Of a stretch of 64,000 bases of DNA, positions 45,771 to 57,785 are shown piece by piece. Numbering within the stretch: the first letter of the stretch is position 1; every line of letters begins with the position of its first letter. The notes below the pieces were generated by a model that saw only the letters and a program-made list of their open reading frames with translations, did not search any database and was not told the origin of the DNA. The stretch covers positions 1 through 64,000 of the forward strand of contig NZ_NCQY01000003.1 of NCBI RefSeq assembly GCF_002894645.1, in the 5' to 3' direction. The DNA is from Salinibacter altiplanensis (GTDB lineage Bacteria; Bacteroidota; Rhodothermia; Rhodothermales; Salinibacteraceae). The translations under genes were made by a program, and so were the position numbers.

Positions 45771-47747
45771 ATGCTCGACGTGGCCCGTGATCGTTGCAGT
45801 GATCTGGACATCGCCCAGGCCCGCGAGTGGCTCGTCACGAATGGGATCGGCGGGTACGCCTCCGGCACCGTGGGCGGCCCCCGGACCCGCGCCTACCACG
45901 GCCTCCTCGTGGCCGCGCTCGATCCGCCCCTCGGCCGCACCCTGCTCGTCTCGCACGTCGACGAAACGATCACCCACGACGACCGCGACTACGACCTGGC
46001 CACCCACCGCTGGGGCGACGGCACCGTGGCGCCCCGCGGCATCGTGCACCTGGATCGCGTCCGCCTGGAGGGCACCGTGCCGGTGTGGACGTACACGCTC
46101 GGCGATGCGCTCCTGGAAAAGCAGGTGTGGATGGACGAGGGTGCGAACGCGACGTACGTGCAGTATCGGCTCCGGCGGGCCCGGGCCCCACTGACCCTCC
46201 GGGCCAAAGCGTTCGTCACCCACCGTGACCACCACGCCCCCACGCAGGCCGGCGACTGGCAGATGAACGTGTCGGCGGTTGACGAGGGCCTGCGCATTGA
46301 CGCCTACGATGGAGCAACGCCCATTTTTCTGCGCAGCACCAGCGCCGAACTCACGCCCGCCCACACCTGGTACCGCGACTACGCGCTGGCCGTGGAGGCG
46401 GACCGGGGCCTTCCGGACCGCGAGGACCTGCTCCACGCCGCCACGGTCGAGGCCCCACTCGCCCCAGGCGACACGCTCACGCTCACGTTCAGCACCGAGC
46501 CCAACGCCTCCCTCGACGGCCCCGCGGCCTGTGCCCGTCGACAGGATCGTGATAAACAGTTGGTGACACAGGCGGGCCTCGACGACGCCTCCGCCGACAT
46601 CCAACATCTTGCCCGCGCCGCCGACCAGTTCGTGGTGGACCGCCCCACCGCGGAGGACCCGGACGGCACGTCCATCGTCGCGGGCTACCCCTGGTTCGGC
46701 GACTGGGGGCGCGACACGATGATCGCCCTCCCCGGCCTCACGCTCACGACCGGGCGGCCCGACGTGGCCGAGCAGATCCTGCGCACCTATGCTCACCACG
46801 TGGACCGGGGCATGATTCCGAACCGCTTTCCCGACCAGGGCGACACGCCGGAGTACAACACCGTGGACGCGACGCTCTGGTACATCGAGGCCATTCGCGC
46901 CTACGTCCACACGACCGGCGACACGGAGTTGCTCCGCGACCTCTTCCCGGTCCTTCACAACATTGTAGAATGGCACGTGGAGGGCACGCGGTACGGCATC
47001 CAGGCGGACCCGAACGACGGGCTCCTGCGGGCGGGCGAGCCGGGGGTGCAGCTCACGTGGATGGACGCGAAGGTCGGCGACTGGGTCGTCACGCCCCGCA
47101 TCGGGAAGCCGGTGGAGGTGAACGCCCTCTGGTACAACGCGCTGCGGAGCCTGGAGGCCTTCGCCGAGACGCTGGGCGAGCCCGCCGATGCCTTTCGCGA
47201 ACGGGCCGACCGGGCCCGGACGGCGTTCGGGCGCTTCTGGGCCCCGAAGTGCGGCCACCTGAAGGACGTGATCAATGGCCCGAACGGCGACAAGCCCCAC
47301 CTGCGCCCGAACCAACTCTTCGCCGTGTCGCTGCCGTACAGCCCCCTTTCGCCGGAGAAGCAGCGCGCCGTTGTCGAGACCTGTGCCGCCCGCCTCTACA
47401 CGCCCCACGGCCTTCGCAGCCTGTCGCCCGACGATTCGGACTACGTTGGCGCCTATCGGGGCGGCCGCGAACACCGGGACGGCGCGTACCACCAGGGCAC
47501 CGTTTGGAGCTGGCTCATCGGGCCGTTCGTCAAAGCGCACCTGCGGGTGCACGACGACCCGGCGACGGCCCGTGCCTACCTTGCGCCCCTGCGTCGCCAC
47601 CTAGCGGGCCACGGGGTCGGGAGCATCAGCGAGATTTTTGACGGCGACGCCCCCTTCACGCCCCGCGGCACGCCGGCCCAGGCCTGGGGGGTGGCGCAGC
47701 TGCTGGAGGCGTGGGCCGCCACCGACGAGGCGCAAACAGCTTCGTAG
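45771..47747 (+). CDS. Glycogen debranching enzyme (GH133-like)
   Basis: 658 aa from ATG 45771. The N-terminal beta domain starts EWLVTNGIGGYASGTVGGPR with YHGLLVAAL. The catalytic (alpha/alpha)6 barrel has IVAGYPWFGDWGRDTMIALP, RTYAHHVDRGMIPNRFPDQG, EYNTVDATLWYIEAIRAYVH, GVQLTWMDAKVGDWVVTPRI, GKPVEVNALWYNALRSLEAF, YHQGTVWSWLIGPFVKAHLR and ISEIFDGDAPFTPRGTPAQA. This is the amylo-alpha-1,6-glucosidase (GDE C-terminal) type that removes glycogen branch stubs. It lacks the transferase half found in eukaryotic enzymes, as is usual in bacteria. Co-oriented with the GH63-like gene upstream, it suggests a glucan- or glycoside-turnover pair. Confidence 0.92.
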   Translation: MLDVARDRCSDLDIAQAREWLVTNGIGGYASGTVGGPRTRAYHGLLVAALDPPLGRTLLVSHVDETITHDDRDYDLATHRWGDGTVAPRGIVHLDRVRLEGTVPVWTYTLGDALLEKQVWMDEGANATYVQYRLRRARAPLTLRAKAFVTHRDHHAPTQAGDWQMNVSAVDEGLRIDAYDGATPIFLRSTSAELTPAHTWYRDYALAVEADRGLPDREDLLHAATVEAPLAPGDTLTLTFSTEPNASLDGPAACARRQDRDKQLVTQAGLDDASADIQHLARAADQFVVDRPTAEDPDGTSIVAGYPWFGDWGRDTMIALPGLTLTTGRPDVAEQILRTYAHHVDRGMIPNRFPDQGDTPEYNTVDATLWYIEAIRAYVHTTGDTELLRDLFPVLHNIVEWHVEGTRYGIQADPNDGLLRAGEPGVQLTWMDAKVGDWVVTPRIGKPVEVNALWYNALRSLEAFAETLGEPADAFRERADRARTAFGRFWAPKCGHLKDVINGPNGDKPHLRPNQLFAVSLPYSPLSPEKQRAVVETCAARLYTPHGLRSLSPDDSDYVGAYRGGREHRDGAYHQGTVWSWLIGPFVKAHLRVHDDPATARAYLAPLRRHLAGHGVGSISEIFDGDAPFTPRGTPAQAWGVAQLLEAWAATDEAQTAS

Positions 47748-47908
47748 AAACGAGGCCCCACGGTTGCCTCCCAGCGCCAGGGCAGGACCGCTCCCCTGTA
47801 ACACTCGTTTTGTTTCTTGGACCTCCTGTGGAAGGAACGGCCGCGGAAGAACAGACCGGCGTCCGCCCCGAGCACGACCGTAGAACATCCGTCATACTGA
47901 TTCGCCCC

Positions 47909-48913
47909 GTGAAAAGCGCTTCTCCCGTCGAGCACGCCGTCCCGACCGTGCTCCGTCGCTGCTGCTGGCTTGTTGGTCTTTGCCTCGTGGTGGGTGTCGG
48001 TGGGTTTTCGGAGGAGACCGCTCCCCCCCAGACACCTTCTACAGAGGCAGAGTCGGATTCAATTTCTGCCCTTCCCCTTTCGGAGAGCCCGCTCTCGAAG
48101 CAAACCCTCACGGCCTGTACCGACAGCACGCTCCAGAAGCAGCTCCACCAGGAGATCAGCCGATCCGAGTGGACGGAACTGATGGAGCAGGGCAACCTGG
48201 CAATCGGGGTGGTCGACCTGTCCGTGCCGGCGGATCCCCACTACGCGGCAGTGAACGGACACCACATGCTGTACGCCGCGAGCCTGCCGAAGATTGGTAT
48301 TTTGTACACCGCCGTTCGCCAGATGGAGTACGGAGGCCTGCGGCCGTCGCCCGCGGTGCGCAGCGACCTGCACAAGATGATTCGGGTGTCGAGCAACGCC
48401 GCCGCCACCCGCATGATTGACCGAGTGGGCGGGCTGCGGGCCGTCAACCAAGCCCTGGAGCACGCGCCCGCGTCCCTCTACGACCGGGACCGGGGCGGCG
48501 GAATCTGGGTGGGCAAACGGTTTTCCTCGGACTCGCGCCGCCGGCCCGATCCGCTTGAAGGCCTCTCGCACGCCGCCACGGTCCATCAGGTGGCCCGCTT
48601 CTACACGATGGTCGCCACCGGACGCCTCGTCAATCGGGCGCGCAGCGCACAGATGCTGGAGATTCTTTCCAATCCGGGCCTGGACCACAAATTCGTCCAC
48701 GTGCTCCGGCGCCGTGCCCCGGAGGCCTCCATCTACCGCAAGTCCGGCTCGTGGCGCACCTGGCACGCCGACTCGGCCCTGGTCTGGGGCCCGGAGCGCC
48801 GCTACGTAATCGTCGCGCTCGTGAAGGACGCGCAGGGCGGCCGCGTCGTGCGCGAGCTGCTTCCGATGGCGGAAGCGGCCCTTGGCCTCTCTTCCTCTCG
48901 CTCGAACTCCTGA
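47909..48913 (+). CDS. Exported serine hydrolase (beta-lactamase/PBP-like, class A fold)
   Basis: 334 aa from GTG 47909 (an alternative GTG is at 47948). Signal helix: RRCCWLVGLCLVVGVGGF. The class A catalytic motifs are all visible: S-x-x-K in LYAASLPKIGILYTAV, S-x-N in IRVSSNAAATRMIDRVG, and K-S-G in IYRKSGSWRTWHAD. It may be a beta-lactamase-like hydrolase, a D,D-peptidase or an unrelated serine hydrolase. The long Pro/Ser/Glu linker after the signal suggests a tethered protein. It converges with the next gene, a second protein with the same three motifs. The start codon is uncertain. Confidence 0.82.
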   Translation: MKSASPVEHAVPTVLRRCCWLVGLCLVVGVGGFSEETAPPQTPSTEAESDSISALPLSESPLSKQTLTACTDSTLQKQLHQEISRSEWTELMEQGNLAIGVVDLSVPADPHYAAVNGHHMLYAASLPKIGILYTAVRQMEYGGLRPSPAVRSDLHKMIRVSSNAAATRMIDRVGGLRAVNQALEHAPASLYDRDRGGGIWVGKRFSSDSRRRPDPLEGLSHAATVHQVARFYTMVATGRLVNRARSAQMLEILSNPGLDHKFVHVLRRRAPEASIYRKSGSWRTWHADSALVWGPERRYVIVALVKDAQGGRVVRELLPMAEAALGLSSSRSNS

Positions 48914-48955
48914 GCCCTGGCCTTTCCATGCAGATCTCCAAGTCCCTCAAGACCG

Positions 48956-50230
48956 TCAGCCCTCGTGGAGGTCCGCGACGATTCGCTCGATGAAGGTGGC
49001 CAGCGATTGGTGCTCCACGGCCGAGTTGACCCGAAGCACGTTCGACATCATCGCGACCATGTAGACGCGCCCGTCGGCCGTCTCGACGATGGCGATGGAG
49101 TTCATGTAGTTGAACCGGTTGCCGGTGTAGGGCTCGCAGGTAAACCCTTCCTCCTCCTCGCAGCTGTAGAGGCTGCCGGACTTGAAGTAGACGGCGTCGT
49201 CGCGCAGGGTGGGGGCCGAGGCGTAGCGGATTCGGTTTCCGGTCATGTAGAGGAGCCGCTTCAGCTCGAGGCTCGACCACGGGTCGACGATCCGCCCCTG
49301 TTCGAGGCGGAGCATCCACCGCATCAGGCCCTGCGGGGTGCCGATGCTGCCCCCCGGGACGTCGATGCGGCGACTGGCCGTGTGCGTAAAGAAGCTGCCC
49401 AGCCGCCACATGCGCTCCGGAATGCCGGCGGCGTCGAGCGGCTTGTGGACGACGCGGTGCGCAATCCGGCCGAGCGAGTCCGCCGGGGTCGACTCCAGAA
49501 ACTGCTGCTCCCGCTCCTCGGACGCCGGATACTCGTCGCCGAAGGCCCGCATGAGGGTTGCCTCCTTCCACACCACACTGGCCGCCGCGTTGGAGCTCGG
49601 CGAGAGCATAAAGTCGACCCACTCGTAGAGCGAAAAGACGTCCGAGGGCCGTGGCTGACGCCGGGTGTATTCGTTGGTCTCCGGGTCGAAAAGAGGGATG
49701 GTGTGGTGGTCGGACACGATCCACTGGCCGGCCTGGACCGTGTGCTCTTTGAGCAGCGCCCGTCGCCGTTCGGGGCGGTCCGGGTAGCGGCGCCTCAGCT
49801 CCGCGAAGAAGCCAGTGGCGATGGCGAGCTTGCCGACGCTGCCGGGCTGGTAGCGATTGGTGGGGCGGAGCTCGGCGTAGCGGGCCGGGGCGCCGGGCGT
49901 GATGTCGAAAACCGTGATGCCGTAGCTGTCGTCCCGATCGGCAAAGAGCCGCTCCAGACGCCGCTGCAGGGCCGGGTCGGGCGCCGGAACGGTGTCGAGG
50001 GAGTCCGCCCCGGGGAGATGCAGTTGGATGTCCATCAGTGACTTGCGGGCGCCCTCGGGCGGCAGGTCGCCCTCCAGCTCGCCGTTCTGCACTCGCTCCA
50101 GGTACAGCAGGCGGCGGATGCCGGTGAGGTCGTACCCGTCAATCGGGTACGGGAGGTGGAACGCGGCGAGGAACGCAACGAGCCCGGCACAGAGGGCGAC
50201 AATCAGCGAACGGCGCATGACACAGCTCAT
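48956..50230 (-). CDS. Exported serine hydrolase (beta-lactamase/PBP-like)
   Basis: 424 aa from ATG 50230 (another in-frame ATG at 50218). Signal or anchor: SLIVALCAGLVAFLAAFHLP. Motifs: S-x-x-K in RYQPGSVGKLAIATGFFAEL, S-x-N in MLSPSSNAAASVVWKEATL, and K-S-G in AVYFKSGSLYSCEEEEGFTC. A domain insertion with many Arg/Glu lies between the second and third motifs. Two Cys near the KSG (SCEEEEGFTC) could form a disulfide. It resembles the gene it converges with in motifs, but overall similarity is weak. Its start is 48 bp from the stop of the dikinase-like gene, so both may be one minus-strand unit. Substrate unknown. Confidence 0.82.
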   Translation of the reverse strand: MSCVMRRSLIVALCAGLVAFLAAFHLPYPIDGYDLTGIRRLLYLERVQNGELEGDLPPEGARKSLMDIQLHLPGADSLDTVPAPDPALQRRLERLFADRDDSYGITVFDITPGAPARYAELRPTNRYQPGSVGKLAIATGFFAELRRRYPDRPERRRALLKEHTVQAGQWIVSDHHTIPLFDPETNEYTRRQPRPSDVFSLYEWVDFMLSPSSNAAASVVWKEATLMRAFGDEYPASEEREQQFLESTPADSLGRIAHRVVHKPLDAAGIPERMWRLGSFFTHTASRRIDVPGGSIGTPQGLMRWMLRLEQGRIVDPWSSLELKRLLYMTGNRIRYASAPTLRDDAVYFKSGSLYSCEEEEGFTCEPYTGNRFNYMNSIAIVETADGRVYMVAMMSNVLRVNSAVEHQSLATFIERIVADLHEG

Positions 50231-50277
50231 GGATTTGATTCGTGGCGTTTCGTGTGAGCCCGACGACTCCACTCTCG

Positions 50278-53226
50278 TCAGCGGGGCCGCGGGGCCGTGA
50301 GGTCGACGGTCGGGCGCGGCTCGGCCTGCGCGTCGAGCGTTCGGTAGTAGGATCGAGCCTTGCCCGGGCCGGCCTCCACAAAGGGACGGACCTGAAAGAG
50401 CCAGAGCGTGCCGTCGCGGAAGCCCAGCTCCACGTCGTACGGCCCCTCGGAGGCGACGCCCGGCACGGAGGGGAGGCGGTCGCGCAGGGTCTGAGCCAGG
50501 CGGCGCAGGCGCTCCCGATTGGCCGCTGTCAATACTGGTCGGTGGAACGAGGTGGCCCTCGTCTCGACCCCGCCCTCCGGCGGGAGTACCGTAATGGTGG
50601 GGGTGCGAAGCGGCGAGAGCAGGGCGGCATCGTGTGCGTCGTCGCTGTCGTTCTCGCGGGGGCGCACCAGCGTCATTTCAGTTGCCTCACCCTTTACGGC
50701 CCCCGCCACCCCTCGACTAAAGGAAAGAGTGAGGGCCTCGGGACCGCCCTCCGACACGCCCGTCGTAATAAGGACGCCGGACTTGTCCGCGTTGACGCTC
50801 TCGGAGAGGAGCACAGACGGGTAGACATGCTCCGGATTTTTGAGGACGCGCTGCCGCCATCGGTAGCTGCGCTCGGTATAGGGGGAGGCCCAAACCTGCC
50901 GGACGGCGTCGAAAATCGCACTCGAATCGACCACGTTGGGCCTCGTTAGGTTGAGGCCGGCCCCGGTAAAGGTGGGCAGGTCCTCCATGTTGGTGTCGCT
51001 GCGGACGAAGACGCCCACCTCTCCCATCGGCCCGCCGAACACATCGCGGAACGTGCGGGTCAGTGCGGCCCGGAAGTCGTCCCGCAGGGGCATGTCGCGG
51101 ATGGCCATCCGCAGCGTGTCGAGCCGGCGTCGCACCCGGAGAGGCGGATCCCCCCGGCCCGCCGGGGCCGTTTCGAAGGTCGCCGTCAGGTAGTCCCAGT
51201 ACGACCCGTTGGTCCCGGGCATCGGCTGATTCATGTGGGCGCGGAAGACGCCGAAGGGAATCGCGAGGCCCGGCGAGACGTGGTCGGGGAAGAGGGCGTT
51301 GAGCTGGCCGAGGTTGGCCGCCTTTGGGCCCACGATGCGCCCCCCATCGGAGGCCCGGAGGTCTCGGAGTGGGCGGAGATCCGTCTCGGCCAGCTCCATC
51401 GCCTCGGTCTCCACCGTGATCAGGGTGTCGGCGGACGCGGGGGCGACGAGGCGGCGCTCGATCTCGGTCATGCGCTCGGCCGGCACCATGCGGACCGTTC
51501 CCTCCGGCGACACGGCGAGGAAGACGCGGGTGCCGTCGTAGCGTGTCAGGGCCTCGATCTGATCGGCGGTGATCGCCGCGGTGGGAATGCCGAGGTTGCG
51601 GGCCAGGAGCTGCACGTGCGAGACCGCATTGCCGCCGCTCGACGTCAAGAGCCCGGCCACCGGCGAGAGGTCGGGGGGCACGTGCTCCAGGACGTACAGA
51701 TCATCCTCGTCGAGATCGGTCGCGGGGGGCAACTCGGTGACGACGTGCAGGGTGCCGGCGGCGACCCCGGCGGTGAGGCCCCGGACGCGCCCGGTGTCGT
51801 CGAGGTCGAGGAGGCGATGCTCGCGCCCGGCCACGCGTGCCTGGAGGCGACCCAGCGTGCCCGCCACCCGCCCAAGGGGAAGCAGCACCGAGTTGCGGAT
51901 CCGATCGTCGATGAAGCCCCGGGCCGCCGGCTCGAAGGCCGCGTAGCGGTTCACGACGTGCTGGTAGTGGGCCGTCGTCATGGCGGTGCCCCACTCCGCC
52001 ACGCGCCGGAGTGCATCGACCCAGCGGTCAAAGTCGGATCGAGAAACCGTAGACGCCGCCGGGAGGGCCAGGCGGTCGGAGACCCGTTCCCACTCCCACA
52101 GCTCAAGGTGCCCGGCGCCGGCCGCGGCCCGGGCGAGCGCCGCTCCTTTCTCGAGCAGGCCGCGATGCCGGTCGGGGGTCCAAGCGGCGGCGCGGCGGAG
52201 CAGCTCGGTTTCGAGAGATACGGAAAGGGCCAGGGCCGTGCGTCGGTAGTCGGGGTCGAGGGTTGGGAGACCGCGTCGTAGACGGAGGAGCAGCCGGCTG
52301 CCCCGCTGCACGCGCTCGTCGGCCGCCAGCGACGGCCAGTCCGACACCAGGGAGCGGGCCGCGTCCGTGAGGGCGTGGTCGGCAGGCAGCGACGCGACGT
52401 GAGACTCCAACCGATCGGCCCCGTCGGAGGCGTAGACGGCGGTGAGGTCACGCTCCAGTTGGGTCAGCTCGGAAAGAAGCTCGTCCGAAAGGGTATCTTC
52501 GCGGGCTCGTCGAAAGTCACGAACCCGGCCGAGCACCGACGAGTCGGGCTGGCCGTGAATTCTCACGCGGAGGGGCATGAACGCCGACAGGGAGTCGGCA
52601 ATGGCCTCCGAGGTGGCGCGGATGCGCTGCTGCACGTTGCCGGCACCCCCCTGCGGAAGGTCGCGGACGGCCTGGCGCAGGAGATAGAAGTGCGAGCGGA
52701 CCCGGTCCTCGTCGCGGAGCATGTGCCGGAGAAACGAGCGCCCCCATTCCGCCTCGTCTTCTGCCTGGAACGCCCCGCGGTAGTACTGGGCGCGGCGCAA
52801 AATCCACCCGTCGTCGACGGCGTAGAGGTACCGGCCGAGCTGATACTGCTTGAGACGGCTGTGCCGGTCGCCTGCATCCCAGAAGGCGTCCGTGTCGGTC
52901 CCCGCCAAAATCTGCCCGAGGTACAGCCCGTGTCGCGTCTGCAGGGCCTTCGCCTCCGGCTTCAGCATCGCGTGCTGGAGGCCGCCGGGCGTGTCGCAGC
53001 GCTCCCGCGCTGGAATGACGCTGCCGTCCGGGCAGAACCACCGGATGCCGGCGTACGGCCCGCGGCGGTCCTCCTTCCAGGACGCAACAAGGGCCTCGAT
53101 GCGCTCGGTCGACGCGGGAGCGACATCGGCGGACGGCGACTGGGCCGTGGCCGAAACAGGAGCTCCAACCAGAAGGCCTACGACGAGAAGAATCTGCGGT
53201 GGAAGGAGAAGGGAGCCGTCATTCAC
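50278..53226 (-). CDS. Exported dikinase-like protein (phosphohistidine domain then PPDK/GWD-type ATP-binding domain)
   Basis: 982 aa from GTG 53226, whose translation starts with a signal peptide (LLPPQILLVVGLLVGAPVSA, then TAQS). About 480 residues of mostly helical, Arg-rich sequence follow with no recognised domain. Then a phosphohistidine swivel (SSGGNAVSHVQLLARNLGIP; His near 534), and a C-terminal ATP-binding domain (RIVGPKAANLGQLNALFPDH near 632; VFVRSDTNMEDLPTFTGAGL near 744; PSVLLSESVNADKSGVLITT; a final DVELGFRDGTLWLFQVRPF). This order, His domain before ATP domain, is that of alpha-glucan water dikinase, the reverse of PPDK and PEP synthase. An ATP-using kinase in the periplasm would be odd, so the signal or the activity needs explaining. 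It may be exported but use another donor, or be non-catalytic. Confidence 0.82.
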   Translation of the reverse strand: MNDGSLLLPPQILLVVGLLVGAPVSATAQSPSADVAPASTERIEALVASWKEDRRGPYAGIRWFCPDGSVIPARERCDTPGGLQHAMLKPEAKALQTRHGLYLGQILAGTDTDAFWDAGDRHSRLKQYQLGRYLYAVDDGWILRRAQYYRGAFQAEDEAEWGRSFLRHMLRDEDRVRSHFYLLRQAVRDLPQGGAGNVQQRIRATSEAIADSLSAFMPLRVRIHGQPDSSVLGRVRDFRRAREDTLSDELLSELTQLERDLTAVYASDGADRLESHVASLPADHALTDAARSLVSDWPSLAADERVQRGSRLLLRLRRGLPTLDPDYRRTALALSVSLETELLRRAAAWTPDRHRGLLEKGAALARAAAGAGHLELWEWERVSDRLALPAASTVSRSDFDRWVDALRRVAEWGTAMTTAHYQHVVNRYAAFEPAARGFIDDRIRNSVLLPLGRVAGTLGRLQARVAGREHRLLDLDDTGRVRGLTAGVAAGTLHVVTELPPATDLDEDDLYVLEHVPPDLSPVAGLLTSSGGNAVSHVQLLARNLGIPTAAITADQIEALTRYDGTRVFLAVSPEGTVRMVPAERMTEIERRLVAPASADTLITVETEAMELAETDLRPLRDLRASDGGRIVGPKAANLGQLNALFPDHVSPGLAIPFGVFRAHMNQPMPGTNGSYWDYLTATFETAPAGRGDPPLRVRRRLDTLRMAIRDMPLRDDFRAALTRTFRDVFGGPMGEVGVFVRSDTNMEDLPTFTGAGLNLTRPNVVDSSAIFDAVRQVWASPYTERSYRWRQRVLKNPEHVYPSVLLSESVNADKSGVLITTGVSEGGPEALTLSFSRGVAGAVKGEATEMTLVRPRENDSDDAHDAALLSPLRTPTITVLPPEGGVETRATSFHRPVLTAANRERLRRLAQTLRDRLPSVPGVASEGPYDVELGFRDGTLWLFQVRPFVEAGPGKARSYYRTLDAQAEPRPTVDLTAPRPR

Positions 53227-53353
53227 AGTGCCGGGAGCAGGATGTCCGTGGTGTAGAACCAACGAAGGGTCGGATGTGTGCTCCGGAGGGCCAGAACGTT
53301 TCGTTCGCCCGGAGGCCTTCGAATTCGGGAGAAGCGCCCTCCGGGAAGAGGCG

Positions 53354-53989
53354 TCAACCGATCGTCGACATTCCCACGACGAGCGTATACACCACGGCAC
53401 CCATTACCAGGAGGGCAGCGCTGCCGTGCACCCACCGCCGGTCGGTGATGATTAGCCCCCCCAGGAGAGACGCGAGCCCCACGTTTACAGCGATATTTTG
53501 TACCAGGCGCGCAGTTTCAACGATCTGGGTGTCCTGCACGGCCCACGCGGCCCCGCTGAACAGCTGGCTGGCGACCAGCAGCCCAATGAACGCCCCGAAG
53601 AACCACCGGCGGTGGGCCGCCGAGAAGTAAAAAGCCTCCAGGTCGAGAGCCGCCTGCGAGTCGCTTGTCCGGCCCCGATCGGTTCCCAGACGCGTCCGGT
53701 CCGGGTCCGGGAGGGCAAACGCGCAGATCAGGTACAGGAGCAGAAACCCCAGCAGCACGGGCGTGAAGACGGCGGCGTGCGCCAGCGCCTCCTTTTGGAG
53801 AAACCGGAACGACTGCCACCAGATCTGCACGATTACCAGAAAGGCGATGGCCGCCCAGGCCAGGGGAAGCCAGTGCCAGTGCACCGTCCGGCTGGGCCGC
53901 ACGAGCTCGCGGAGGCTCCGGGCCAGATCCGTGAGCCCGAGGCCGACGATGATCGAAACGAGGGCGATCAGGTATTCGAGTTGAGACAT
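53354..53989 (-). CDS. Multi-span membrane protein, unknown function
   Basis: 211 aa from ATG 53989. Five to six hydrophobic segments: YLIALVSIIVGLGLTDLARS, WLPLAWAAIAFLVIVQIWWQ, VFTPVLLGFLLLYLICAFAL, WFFGAFIGLLVASQLFSGAA, VNVGLASLLGGLIITDRRW and AALLVMGAVVYTLVVGM. A hydrophilic loop (DPDRTRLGTDRGRTSDSQAA) lies in the middle. No family recognised. It is upstream of the dikinase-like gene on the same strand, separated by 127 bp. Confidence 0.8.
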   Translation of the reverse strand: MSQLEYLIALVSIIVGLGLTDLARSLRELVRPSRTVHWHWLPLAWAAIAFLVIVQIWWQSFRFLQKEALAHAAVFTPVLLGFLLLYLICAFALPDPDRTRLGTDRGRTSDSQAALDLEAFYFSAAHRRWFFGAFIGLLVASQLFSGAAWAVQDTQIVETARLVQNIAVNVGLASLLGGLIITDRRWVHGSAALLVMGAVVYTLVVGMSTIG

Positions 53990-54698: not shown

Positions 54699-55118
54699 AT
54701 GCCGCCCCATTCAACGAGCAACACGACGCACATCGGATTTTCGGCCACGCTCCGGGTCATGTGCGCCGCGGAGCGGCACGACGAGATCGAACAGGTTACG
54801 GGGCTGACGGCGACCCATCAGCACGAGCACGGCGAGCCGGGCTTGTTCGGGCAGCCCTGGCCGAAGGACCTCTGGGCCCTGGAGTCGCCCCTGCCCCCGG
54901 ACACGGCCCTCGGTGAGCACCTGGAGTGGCTGTGGACCCGGGTAGAGCCCCACCAGGACTACTTTCGGGGACTTGCCGCGGAAGAGGGCGTAGACGTCGA
55001 CCTCTTCTGTGGCTACCGCAGCGATTGTGACGAGTGTGGCTTCGAGGTGCAGCCCGACGCGCTCAACATCGTGCAGGCGCTCTCAGTGCCGTTGGAGGTC
55101 TCGGTGGTGTTTACCTGA
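54699..55118 (+). CDS. DUF4279 domain protein
   Basis: 139 aa from ATG 54699. The fold pattern fits DUF4279: a first strand HIGFSATLRVMCAAERHDEI, a helix-and-loop EQVTGLTATHQHEHGEPGLF, GQPWPKDLWALESPLPPDTA, the helix LGEHLEWLWTRVEPHQDYF and closing strands VDLFCGYRSDCDECGFEVQP and SVPLEVSVVFT. These domains occur with immunity or unknown roles. No toxin gene is adjacent here. It precedes mlaE on the same strand by 68 bp. Confidence 0.72.
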   Translation: MPPHSTSNTTHIGFSATLRVMCAAERHDEIEQVTGLTATHQHEHGEPGLFGQPWPKDLWALESPLPPDTALGEHLEWLWTRVEPHQDYFRGLAAEEGVDVDLFCGYRSDCDECGFEVQPDALNIVQALSVPLEVSVVFT

Positions 55119-55186
55119 GCAGCCCCTCCACCGCCGTGCCGGCCCGTTCCCAACCGCCCCGCCCCTCAGTCATTCTCACAGCTTCT

Positions 55187-55954
55187 ATGATCAGCGCCCT
55201 CGCAAGCAAAGTGGTGACGCTGTTCCAACACGTCGGGCGGTTCGTGAGGCTGCTGGGAGAGGCATTCGGAAGCCCCATCTACGACGGCCCCACCTACCGG
55301 CAGAACCTGGCCCGGGAGATGAAGCAGGTCGGCGTAGAGTCGCTGCCCATCGTCGCCATCGCCGCGGCGTTCACGGGGGGCGTGACGACCGAGCAGACGA
55401 TCTACCAAATGCGCTACCCACTCATTCCGGAAAGCACGGTGGGCGCCATCGTGGTGCCGTCCGTCATTCTGGAGTTCGGGGCACTTATTACGGCATTCAT
55501 CCTGGCGGGCCGCGTGAGCGCCCGGATCGCGGCGGAGCTGGGCTCGATGCGCACGAACGGCCAGATCGACGCGCTCAGCGTGATGGGCATCAGCGCATCG
55601 GGCTATCTGGTCTGGCCCCGGGTGCTGGCCGGCGTGATCACGTTTCCGTTCCTGTACATCGTCGCGAGCGTAGTGGGCGGGGCGGCCGGGTTTGGGGTGG
55701 CCGCCACGTCCGGCACCGTCACGCCCGCGGAGTTCTTGTCCGGCGCCCGGTCGTTCTTTACGGGGTTCATGGCGGTCTACGGCCTGGTGAAGGCCGTCGT
55801 CTTCGGGTTCTTGATTACCGCCATCGCCTGCTACGTCGGCTTCTACACCGAGGGCGGGGCCCAGGGAGTGGGACGGAGCGCCACCCGGGCCGCCGTAACA
55901 ACGTGCATGTTCGTGCTGGTGGCCGACTACCTGCTCGCCCTCCTCATGCTTTGA
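55187..55954 (+). CDS. mlaE: MlaE-type ABC lipid-transport permease
   Basis: 255 aa from ATG 55187. Family pattern: a short N-terminal amphipathic helix (FQHVGRFVRLLGEAFGSPIY), REMKQVGVESLPIVAIAAAF, then TGGVTTEQTIYQMRYPLIPE, the core ELGSMRTNGQIDALSVMGIS with about five membrane segments (PSVILEFGALITAFILAGRV; VLAGVITFPFLYIVASVVGG; FFTGFMAVYGLVKAVVFGFL; TTCMFVLVADYLLALLML). It moves phospholipid across the inner membrane with MlaF and MlaD; direction cannot be told. It heads mlaE-mlaF-mlaD; no MlaB or MlaC gene is in the window. The coding end is duplicated (see repeat). Confidence 0.93.
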   Translation: MISALASKVVTLFQHVGRFVRLLGEAFGSPIYDGPTYRQNLAREMKQVGVESLPIVAIAAAFTGGVTTEQTIYQMRYPLIPESTVGAIVVPSVILEFGALITAFILAGRVSARIAAELGSMRTNGQIDALSVMGISASGYLVWPRVLAGVITFPFLYIVASVVGGAAGFGVAATSGTVTPAEFLSGARSFFTGFMAVYGLVKAVVFGFLITAIACYVGFYTEGGAQGVGRSATRAAVTTCMFVLVADYLLALLML

Positions 55955-55974
55955 CGAGCTCATGCTTTGACAAG
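55943..55974 (+). repeat. 16-bp tandem duplication spanning the mlaE stop
   Basis: ctcatgctttgacgag (55943-55958) is followed by ctcatgctttgacaag (55959-55974), 15 of 16 bases identical. The first copy holds the last codons and TGA of mlaE; the second repeats codons and stop beyond it. It looks like a recent slippage duplication with no effect on the protein. Confidence 0.8.
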
Positions 55975-56042
55975 CCGTTCGCCCTGCGCGTCCCATCGCG
56001 CTGCTCCCCCATCGCGCCCCTCTGCTCCGACGCCCACGTGCC

Positions 56043-56777
56043 ATGATCGAGGTCGAAAACGTCCACAAAGGGTTTGACGGAACGCCCGTGCTAGAGGGGG
56101 TCGACTTCGAAATCGACGAGTGCAATCTCTTCGCGATCGTCGGCCACTCGGGCTCGGGCAAGAGCGTGCTGCTCCGTCACCTGGTGGGCCTGCTGCAACC
56201 TGATCAGGGCCACGTGCGCGTCGGGGACACGGACCTGGCCACGCTGTCGGACGACGAGCTGGAAACAGTCCGTACGCGCTTCGGCATGCTCTTTCAGGGC
56301 GGGGCCCTGTTCGACTCGATGACGGTCTACGACAACGTGTCCCTTCCGCTCCGGCTCCACACCGACCAGCCCGAGTCCGAAATCGAAGCCCGAGTGATGG
56401 AGGAGCTGGAGCGGGTGGAGCTCCGGGCTGCGGCCGATCAGACGCCCGCGTCGCTTTCCGGTGGGCAGGTCAAGCGGGTGGCCCTGGCCCGCGCCATCGT
56501 TCGGAAGCCCCAGTACCTGTTCTACGACGAGCCCAGCAGCGGCCTGGACCCGGAGACCTCGAGCGTGATCGATGCCCTCATCAAGCAGCTCTCCCGCACG
56601 CTCTGCCGCATGGGGGTGATGGTGACGCACGACATGCACTCGGTGCTCTCGATCGCCGACCAGGTGGGCTTCCTGCACGAGGGGCAGATGCGGTTCGTGG
56701 GCACCGTGGAGGAGCTCCGGGCCTGCACCGACCCCGTGCTCTGCGACTTTCTGGAGGCGAATGCCTACCAGCTCTGA
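56043..56777 (+). CDS. mlaF: MlaF-type ABC ATPase
   Basis: 244 aa from ATG 56043. Walker A in AIVGHSGSGKSVLLRHLVGL, signature LSGGQVKRVALARAIVRKPQ, Walker B YLFYDEPSSGLDPETSSVID, and the switch His in MGVMVTHDMHSVLSIADQVG. It powers lipid movement by the MlaE permease. It lies 88 bp after mlaE and 60 bp before mlaD on the same strand. Confidence 0.95.
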   Translation: MIEVENVHKGFDGTPVLEGVDFEIDECNLFAIVGHSGSGKSVLLRHLVGLLQPDQGHVRVGDTDLATLSDDELETVRTRFGMLFQGGALFDSMTVYDNVSLPLRLHTDQPESEIEARVMEELERVELRAAADQTPASLSGGQVKRVALARAIVRKPQYLFYDEPSSGLDPETSSVIDALIKQLSRTLCRMGVMVTHDMHSVLSIADQVGFLHEGQMRFVGTVEELRACTDPVLCDFLEANAYQL

Positions 56778-56837
56778 GGCCGTCTCGGAGCCGCCCCAGG
56801 ACTTCTTTTTGTCTTTTCGACGCGATTCTTCCGTGCC

Positions 56838-57785
56838 ATGAGCTCAGACCGCAGCGACGAAAAAGAACGGGCGCGTTTCTGGAACGAGTTTCGGGTGGGC
56901 GTCCTCGCCGTCACGGCCCTCGGGCTCCTGGTACTGGGCGTCCGATTTCTGCAGAGCACCGCCCTCTTCGGAAGCACCTACACGCTGACCGCCCGCTTCG
57001 AGCAGGCGGAGGGCGTGGCGGCCGGCACGCCAGTCACGGTGCGGGGCATCTCTGTGGGCACCGTCGATCGGGTTGCGCTCGCGGAAGATGCGGGCGTCCG
57101 GGTGCGGATGCACATTCAGGACGACGTGCAGCTGCGGGAGGGCACGACCGCGTCGGTCGGCGGCATCGCGGCCCTCGATGATGTGAGCGTTTCGCTCAAT
57201 CGGGCGGACGCGGGCGATCCCCTTGCCACTGGGGCCCGCCTCCCCACAGTGGAGCAGGGCACGCTCGACGAGCTGCAGGAACGGGCCCTGCCAATTGCCG
57301 AACGGATCGACAGCGTACTGGCACAAACCTCCGGCACACTGTCGGAGGCGCAGCGCGTCCTCACGGGGTCGGAGCCAAACGTGCAGCGCCTGACCGAAAA
57401 CCTCCGCTCGGCCTCGGCGGGCATCGATGCGTTCGTGCAGCGGGAGCGTGCGCCCATGCGCCGCGCCATCGGCCACCTCGAACACACCACCGCCACCCTG
57501 GAGGCGCTCGTCGACACGCTCAACCGCGACACGCTGGCCCGGGCGGTGGAGGACGCAGAGCGGACCCTGCACTACACCCGCCGCACGGCCCGGTCGCTCG
57601 AACAGGGCGCTCAGGACCTGGAGGCGATCCTGGCGGACCTGCGGGCGGGACGGGGCACCGCGGGCAGGCTCCTGGACGACCCAGGCCTCTACCACCGGGC
57701 CGACTCCCTCTCGCTCCGGATGGACCGCATTCTGGAAGACTTTGAAGAGAACCCGGGGCGCTACATCAGCCTCGAAATTTTCTGA
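56838..57785 (+). CDS. mlaD: MlaD-type MCE-domain lipid carrier subunit
   Basis: 315 aa from ATG 56838. A single N-terminal membrane anchor ([20 protein letters not shown]) and an MCE domain ([59 protein letters not shown]). The following long helical part (about 155-300; [40 protein letters not shown]) would form the periplasmic channel-like extension. It works with MlaE and MlaF. The C-terminus has a short YISLEIF. The final gene of the mla set; transketolase follows after 154 bp. Confidence 0.93.

Follow-up and report, generated by a model that had tools for sequence, protein, structure and literature searches.

Dikinases spend ATP on the phosphorylation of their acceptors, and the periplasm is commonly assumed to do without this nucleotide (e.g. 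PMC5740924), a consideration that counts against placing such an enzyme there. A gene on a contig of Salinibacter altiplanensis (NZ_NCQY01000003.1; the window is the whole stretch analysed, positions 1 to 64,000) nevertheless appears to encode exactly this combination: a dikinase preceded by an export signal. Is the protein, here called A, truly exported, is its active site intact, and with which other genes does it travel? The features on which the answers rest are collected in Table 1.

Table 1. Features of the A locus, with positions in the window
Feature	Position	Strand	Remarks
Gene C, exported class-A-beta-lactamase-like protein (PF13354)	47711..48913	+	converges on B
C-B-A cassette, segment missing at the same place in same-genus G005	47720..53350	.	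empty-site comparison
Gene B, exported SxxK protein, beta-lactamase fold	48956..50272	-	starts 5 bp after A
Gene A, exported PPDK-type dikinase	50278..53226	-	982 aa; GTG start assumed
PPDK_N ATP-binding domain of A, residues 631-957	50356..51336	-	K635, R742, T761, E933, Q945, R947
Phosphohistidine swivel domain of A, residues 476-600	51427..51801	-	H537 at 51616-51618
N-terminal, mostly helical region of A, residues 30-475	51802..53139	-	C65/C77 and 26 polar/aromatic residues invariant
Export signal of A, residues 1-28	53143..53226	-	hydrophobic core, end SATA-Q; present in 13/13 orthologues

The export signal and the domains of A

The open reading frame of A is real. Its start codon is uncertain, being either the GTG at 53226 or an in-frame TTG farther upstream, and the hydrophobic stretch that ends in SATA-Q (12-residue Kyte-Doolittle mean 2.64) is kept under either choice. 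From the assumed GTG, the hydrophobic core has no preceding Lys or Arg, and this missing positive n-region counts against the reading of A as an exported dikinase. The comparison set comprises window A and 13 full-length orthologues with 38-48% identity, including one in the genome G041 and one in Mesonia profundi; in every orthologue the signal and the order of domains are kept, as are the catalytic His and the ATP-site residues tested. In all 13 an N-terminal hydrophobic core is found with 1-4 Lys or Arg ahead of it. The signal peptide proposed in the sequence-only reading is thus borne out in all 14 copies, and the worry that homologues might start downstream of it finds no counterpart among the 13 orthologues.

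Pfam arranges the protein as N-terminal region, His domain and ATP domain, in agreement with the earlier claim of a swivel followed by a PPDK-type ATP domain, the order of alpha-glucan water dikinase (GWD). The PPDK_N family (PF01326) is matched in all 14 members, above the cut-off in window A (E 4.8e-21), and the PEP-utilizers swivel family (PF00391) matches all of them weakly (best E 0.0014; residues 520-555 in window A, E 0.0018). The swivel motif SSGGNAVSHVQLLARNLGIP is present as first described, its catalytic His being H537 instead of a residue near 534. This His and the six ATP-site residues of Table 1 are invariant in the 14-sequence alignment, which excludes loss of the active site for these members and disposes of the suspicion that the catalytic residues might have decayed across the family. 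Five of the invariant positions, H537, K635, R742, T761 and E933, align with H825, K22, R117, T136 and E297 of the rifampin phosphotransferase RPH-Lm (PMC4844700). By the features tested, A is a member of the PPDK-type dikinase superfamily.

Its place within that superfamily is less conventional. By sequence, A finds PEP synthase and rifampin phosphotransferase (RPH) entries in NCBIfam and the PDB only via its ATP and swivel domains. A PPDK-type ATP domain, a swivel His and the same catalytic residues are shared with PEP synthase, but in A the His domain comes before the ATP domain, an export signal is present, and Pfam detects neither a PEP/pyruvate barrel nor a PEP-utilizers_C match. RPH and the two-component phenol dikinases (HpeHI, PpsAB) resemble A in being small-molecule dikinases devoid of a pyruvate barrel (PMC4844700, PMC12167813), and A retains the equivalents of K22, R117, T136 and H825 of RPH; in RPH, however, the ATP domain comes first, the drug-binding domain second and the His domain last; the enzyme has not been described as exported, and its drug-binding domain finds no match in the N-terminal region of A. 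Identification of A as PEP synthase, PPDK or RPH was ruled out by the domain order, the missing barrel and the low equivalog scores, 82.7 bits for PEP synthase against a cut-off of 598 and 70.6 bits for rifampin phosphotransferase against a cut-off of 999.

The N-terminal region had been described as an unrecognised helical stretch of about 480 residues. Its size is closer to 445; the remainder of the description has held, with no Pfam family consistently matched across the 14 members and a mostly helical fold predicted from low-confidence models only (pLDDT 33 for whole A and 44 for this region, from an alignment of two usable sequences only). C65 and C77, which lie 12 residues apart, are the only cysteines common to all 14 proteins and the sole cysteines present in three of them, a pattern that would suit an exported protein with a disulfide bond. 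Invariant too in this region are 26 residues with polar or aromatic side chains, among them R55, D138, R150, E156, E158, R220, H224, E375 and E378; an active site would be conserved in such a way, and the region is proposed to bind the acceptor.

Partner genes and a three-gene cassette

Two further genes accompany A. In a related locus (L020) A and B overlap by 4 bp. The true start of C in the window probably lies near 47940, directly ahead of the hydrophobic core. Both B and C carry export signals and SxxK, SxN and KSG motifs that are conserved in alignments, like the class A beta-lactamases and PF13354 serine hydrolases, and C scores 67 bits against PF13354. Unlike class A beta-lactamases, they fall far under the NCBIfam cut-off for that class (C reaches 19.5 bits against 200 and B gives no score), and they occur only with A: among 394 genomes each has one orthologue per genome, found only alongside A. 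Nearly every neighbourhood that was read shows the order A, B ... C again, and so does the fragmented genome G041.

The survey of A was confined to Bacteroidota, where it is present in 12 of the 394 genomes, that of the window included; G041 and Mesonia profundi hold further copies. With cut-offs of E <= 1e-30 for A and E <= 1e-20 for B and C, the three genes match the identical 12 genomes, which span six families and 11 genera. The probability of such a profile match by chance comes to 4e-23 if genomes are treated as independent and to 1.6e-17 by genus, figures that are too small given shared ancestry. In G225 the three genes and the nucleotide transporter-like gene discussed below are all present but scattered over two contigs. 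The divergence of the four proteins is correlated (Spearman 0.66-0.91), as expected of jointly inherited genes, and was given no weight of its own. Judged from gene content and order, A belongs to a conserved module of exported proteins, a conclusion that goes beyond the sequence-only reading, in which neither the two linked hydrolase genes nor the transporter figured.

A non-exhaustive scan of genome contigs with one protein returned Mesonia as its sole match. A plasmid search with A gave ATP-domain matches only, covering 20-35% of the query, viral contigs gave no match, and a defence-system library contained no match for A, B or C. Of A, the same-genus draft G008 harbours on contig C8 (L031:13881-14999, minus strand) no more than residues 514-772, at 70% identity and close to the contig end; no B was found in this genome, and the fragment is either a remnant or the product of an assembly break.

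The genus itself offers an empty site. In the same-genus genome G005 the GH63-like and GH133-like genes are followed by an 80-bp gap, a membrane-protein gene equivalent to window 53350-53989, and transketolase, and the C-B-A segment is likewise missing from the same-genus genome G001. C, B and A therefore form one insertion relative to G005, and the module behaves like a cassette of three genes, whose base composition is not distinctive.

Nucleotide transporters and the supply of ATP

The fourth regular member of the module is a protein of about 940 residues that combines a TLC ATP/ADP-transporter domain with HEAT repeats (NTT-HEAT). The TLC domain (PF03219) was recognized with 30.3, 34.9 and 36.3 bits against a cut-off of 21, and the gene sits between B and C in Mesonia, in both genomes of the same class and in most of the rest. 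NTT-HEAT fusions are widespread in free-living bacteria (PMC5381601); the module protein shares their TLC and HEAT architecture, whereas the text of PMC5381601 makes no mention of a tie to SxxK proteins or to a dikinase that is exported. When the module protein is used as query, 10 of the 12 A-bearing genomes score at least 490 bits and every other sampled genome at most 350, a gap that points to subfamilies with different partners. Among the NTT-HEAT proteins of Bacteroidota, those of the module (L019:3598-6438 and relatives) form a separate high-scoring group.

The two A-bearing genomes of the 12 that are devoid of a module-type NTT-HEAT protein are that of the window and G054. It is also missing from G041 and G008, two incomplete genomes in which no TLC protein at all was found, and these absences were counted against the idea that the transporter supplies A with ATP. 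Contig C7 of the window genome (G000:C7) encodes two adjacent NTT proteins, a plain one (453 aa; L042:6880-8241) and a HEAT-repeat fusion (903 aa; L042:8545-11256), both on the minus strand. Relatives of this pair occur in same-genus genomes that do not possess A, so the pair is not module-specific, and since the window genome has no NTT of the module type, an NTT-fed supply of ATP is presumed there.

A transporter of another kind, belonging to the MFS group, lies divergently beside A in G054 (L025:7094-8611, minus strand) and G041 (L030:3874-5388, plus strand). The two proteins are 61% identical to one another and come from different families, both without NTT-HEAT; the window genome does not share this gene. 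The MFS protein could be a substitute transporter.

Proposed chemistry and competing readings

The association of A with two exported hydrolases and, usually, an ATP-transporter-like protein suggests ATP-run phosphate chemistry outside the cytoplasm. The earlier proposal of a new extracytoplasmic phosphotransfer protein is accordingly a plausible one, in view of the signal and of the full set of dikinase catalytic residues, and no description of an exported dikinase, a periplasmic GWD or an A/B/C module was found in the open-licence literature. In this superfamily a phosphate of ATP is transferred to His with release of AMP and inorganic phosphate, and the swivel then conveys it to the acceptor domain (PMC4844700, PMC12167813). 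As all residues for this chemistry are retained, A most likely does likewise, with the acceptor bound on its N-terminal region.

The sequence of events might be as follows. NTT-HEAT would carry ATP through the inner membrane, probably swapping it for ADP or AMP. Once this ATP is bound by the C-terminal domain of A, its beta-phosphate would move to H537 while AMP and phosphate leave; the swivel domain would then turn towards the helical N-terminal region and phosphorylate the acceptor held there. B and C, with their SxxK motif and beta-lactamase/DD-peptidase fold, may prepare the acceptor or process the product. The weak step concerns the acceptor: the beta-lactamase fold of the partners suggests a molecule that contains an amide or a peptide linkage, perhaps one of the wall or envelope, and the best guess from these genes is that phosphate goes to a hydroxyl group, either on a component of the cell envelope or on a small molecule entering the cell, in both cases with such a linkage. 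In the window genome the cassette would have arrived without its own transporter, and ATP may come from the genus-wide C7 pair or from outside the cell.

We consider the chances about even that A works as a dikinase in the periplasm, forms the core of a conserved module and phosphorylates an acceptor handled by B and C. A more specific version, in which free-living Bacteroidota dedicate translocase-exported ATP, a secreted dikinase and two SxxK enzymes to the phosphorylation and modification of an envelope component, is tentative and holds with distinctly lower probability.

The same genes might instead inactivate drugs or toxins outside the cytoplasm, A acting on a periplasmic antibiotic in the manner of RPH and B and C hydrolysing other wall-targeting agents. 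RPH is indeed a dikinase and shares both catalytic domains with A (PMC4844700), C has a class A beta-lactamase fold, and a patchy distribution and an inserted three-gene cassette suit an accessory trait. This reading is nonetheless unlikely: the N-terminal region is unlike the rifampin-binding domain of RPH in every search, C lies far below the class A beta-lactamase cut-off and B gives no score, resistance would hardly be expected to pay for an ATP transporter of its own, and deep divergence, down to 38% identity, has not separated the four genes.

Less likely again is a role in nucleotide scavenging or in the sensing of extracellular ATP, with A using ATP from outside the cell and NTT-HEAT taking up the products. 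Such a direction of transport agrees with the characterized NTTs, which import nucleotides (PMC5381601), and several module genomes have no module-type NTT. The scheme, however, leaves the invariant N-terminal region without a function, and likewise the two SxxK proteins that co-occur perfectly with A. ATP is, moreover, scarce in open water.

The domain order and a set of neighbouring glycosidases had led the sequence-only reading towards a relation with GWD and a possible link to glucans. GWD and PWD are plastid enzymes with starch-binding domains. A shares their order of His domain then ATP domain, but no CBM family was matched in the 14 members, and no glucan gene is conserved nearby. The order is the part of the proposed relation that stands; kinship does not follow from it. 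GWD1_pHisD (PF22973) is matched weakly in 6 of 14 members (best E 0.012, none above the cut-off), and by sequence the ATP domain finds PEP synthase and RPH. According to PMC12892837, no structure of GWD or PWD had been solved. The glucan link itself was rejected: the GH63-like and GH133-like genes are resident flanks around the empty site, and their residence in same-genus genomes devoid of the module deprives the link of support, as does the lack of conserved glycosidases near A in other genomes. With partners of peptidase/beta-lactamase type instead of glycosidases, an extracytoplasmic GWD-like enzyme phosphorylating glucan or another polysaccharide is highly improbable.

Slightly more remote still is a non-catalytic A that binds nucleotides or acts as a scaffold in the envelope, which would suit a location where ATP is not expected, yet catalytic residues that are invariant over 14 sequences at 38-48% identity are unexpected for a dead enzyme.

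To return to the exported dikinase, a secreted enzyme with an intact ATP site and a phyletic tie to an ATP/ADP-translocase-like protein renders the assumption of an ATP-free periplasm directly testable, and culturable flavobacteria such as Mesonia make the test feasible. Were the reading true, NTT-HEAT proteins would gain their first concrete role.

A last observation concerns the surroundings of the cassette. An Mla-type ABC transporter operon block (window 54735-57742) adjoins it, and in G001 this block is located elsewhere, at C35:85305-88235, so that this flank has been rearranged too.
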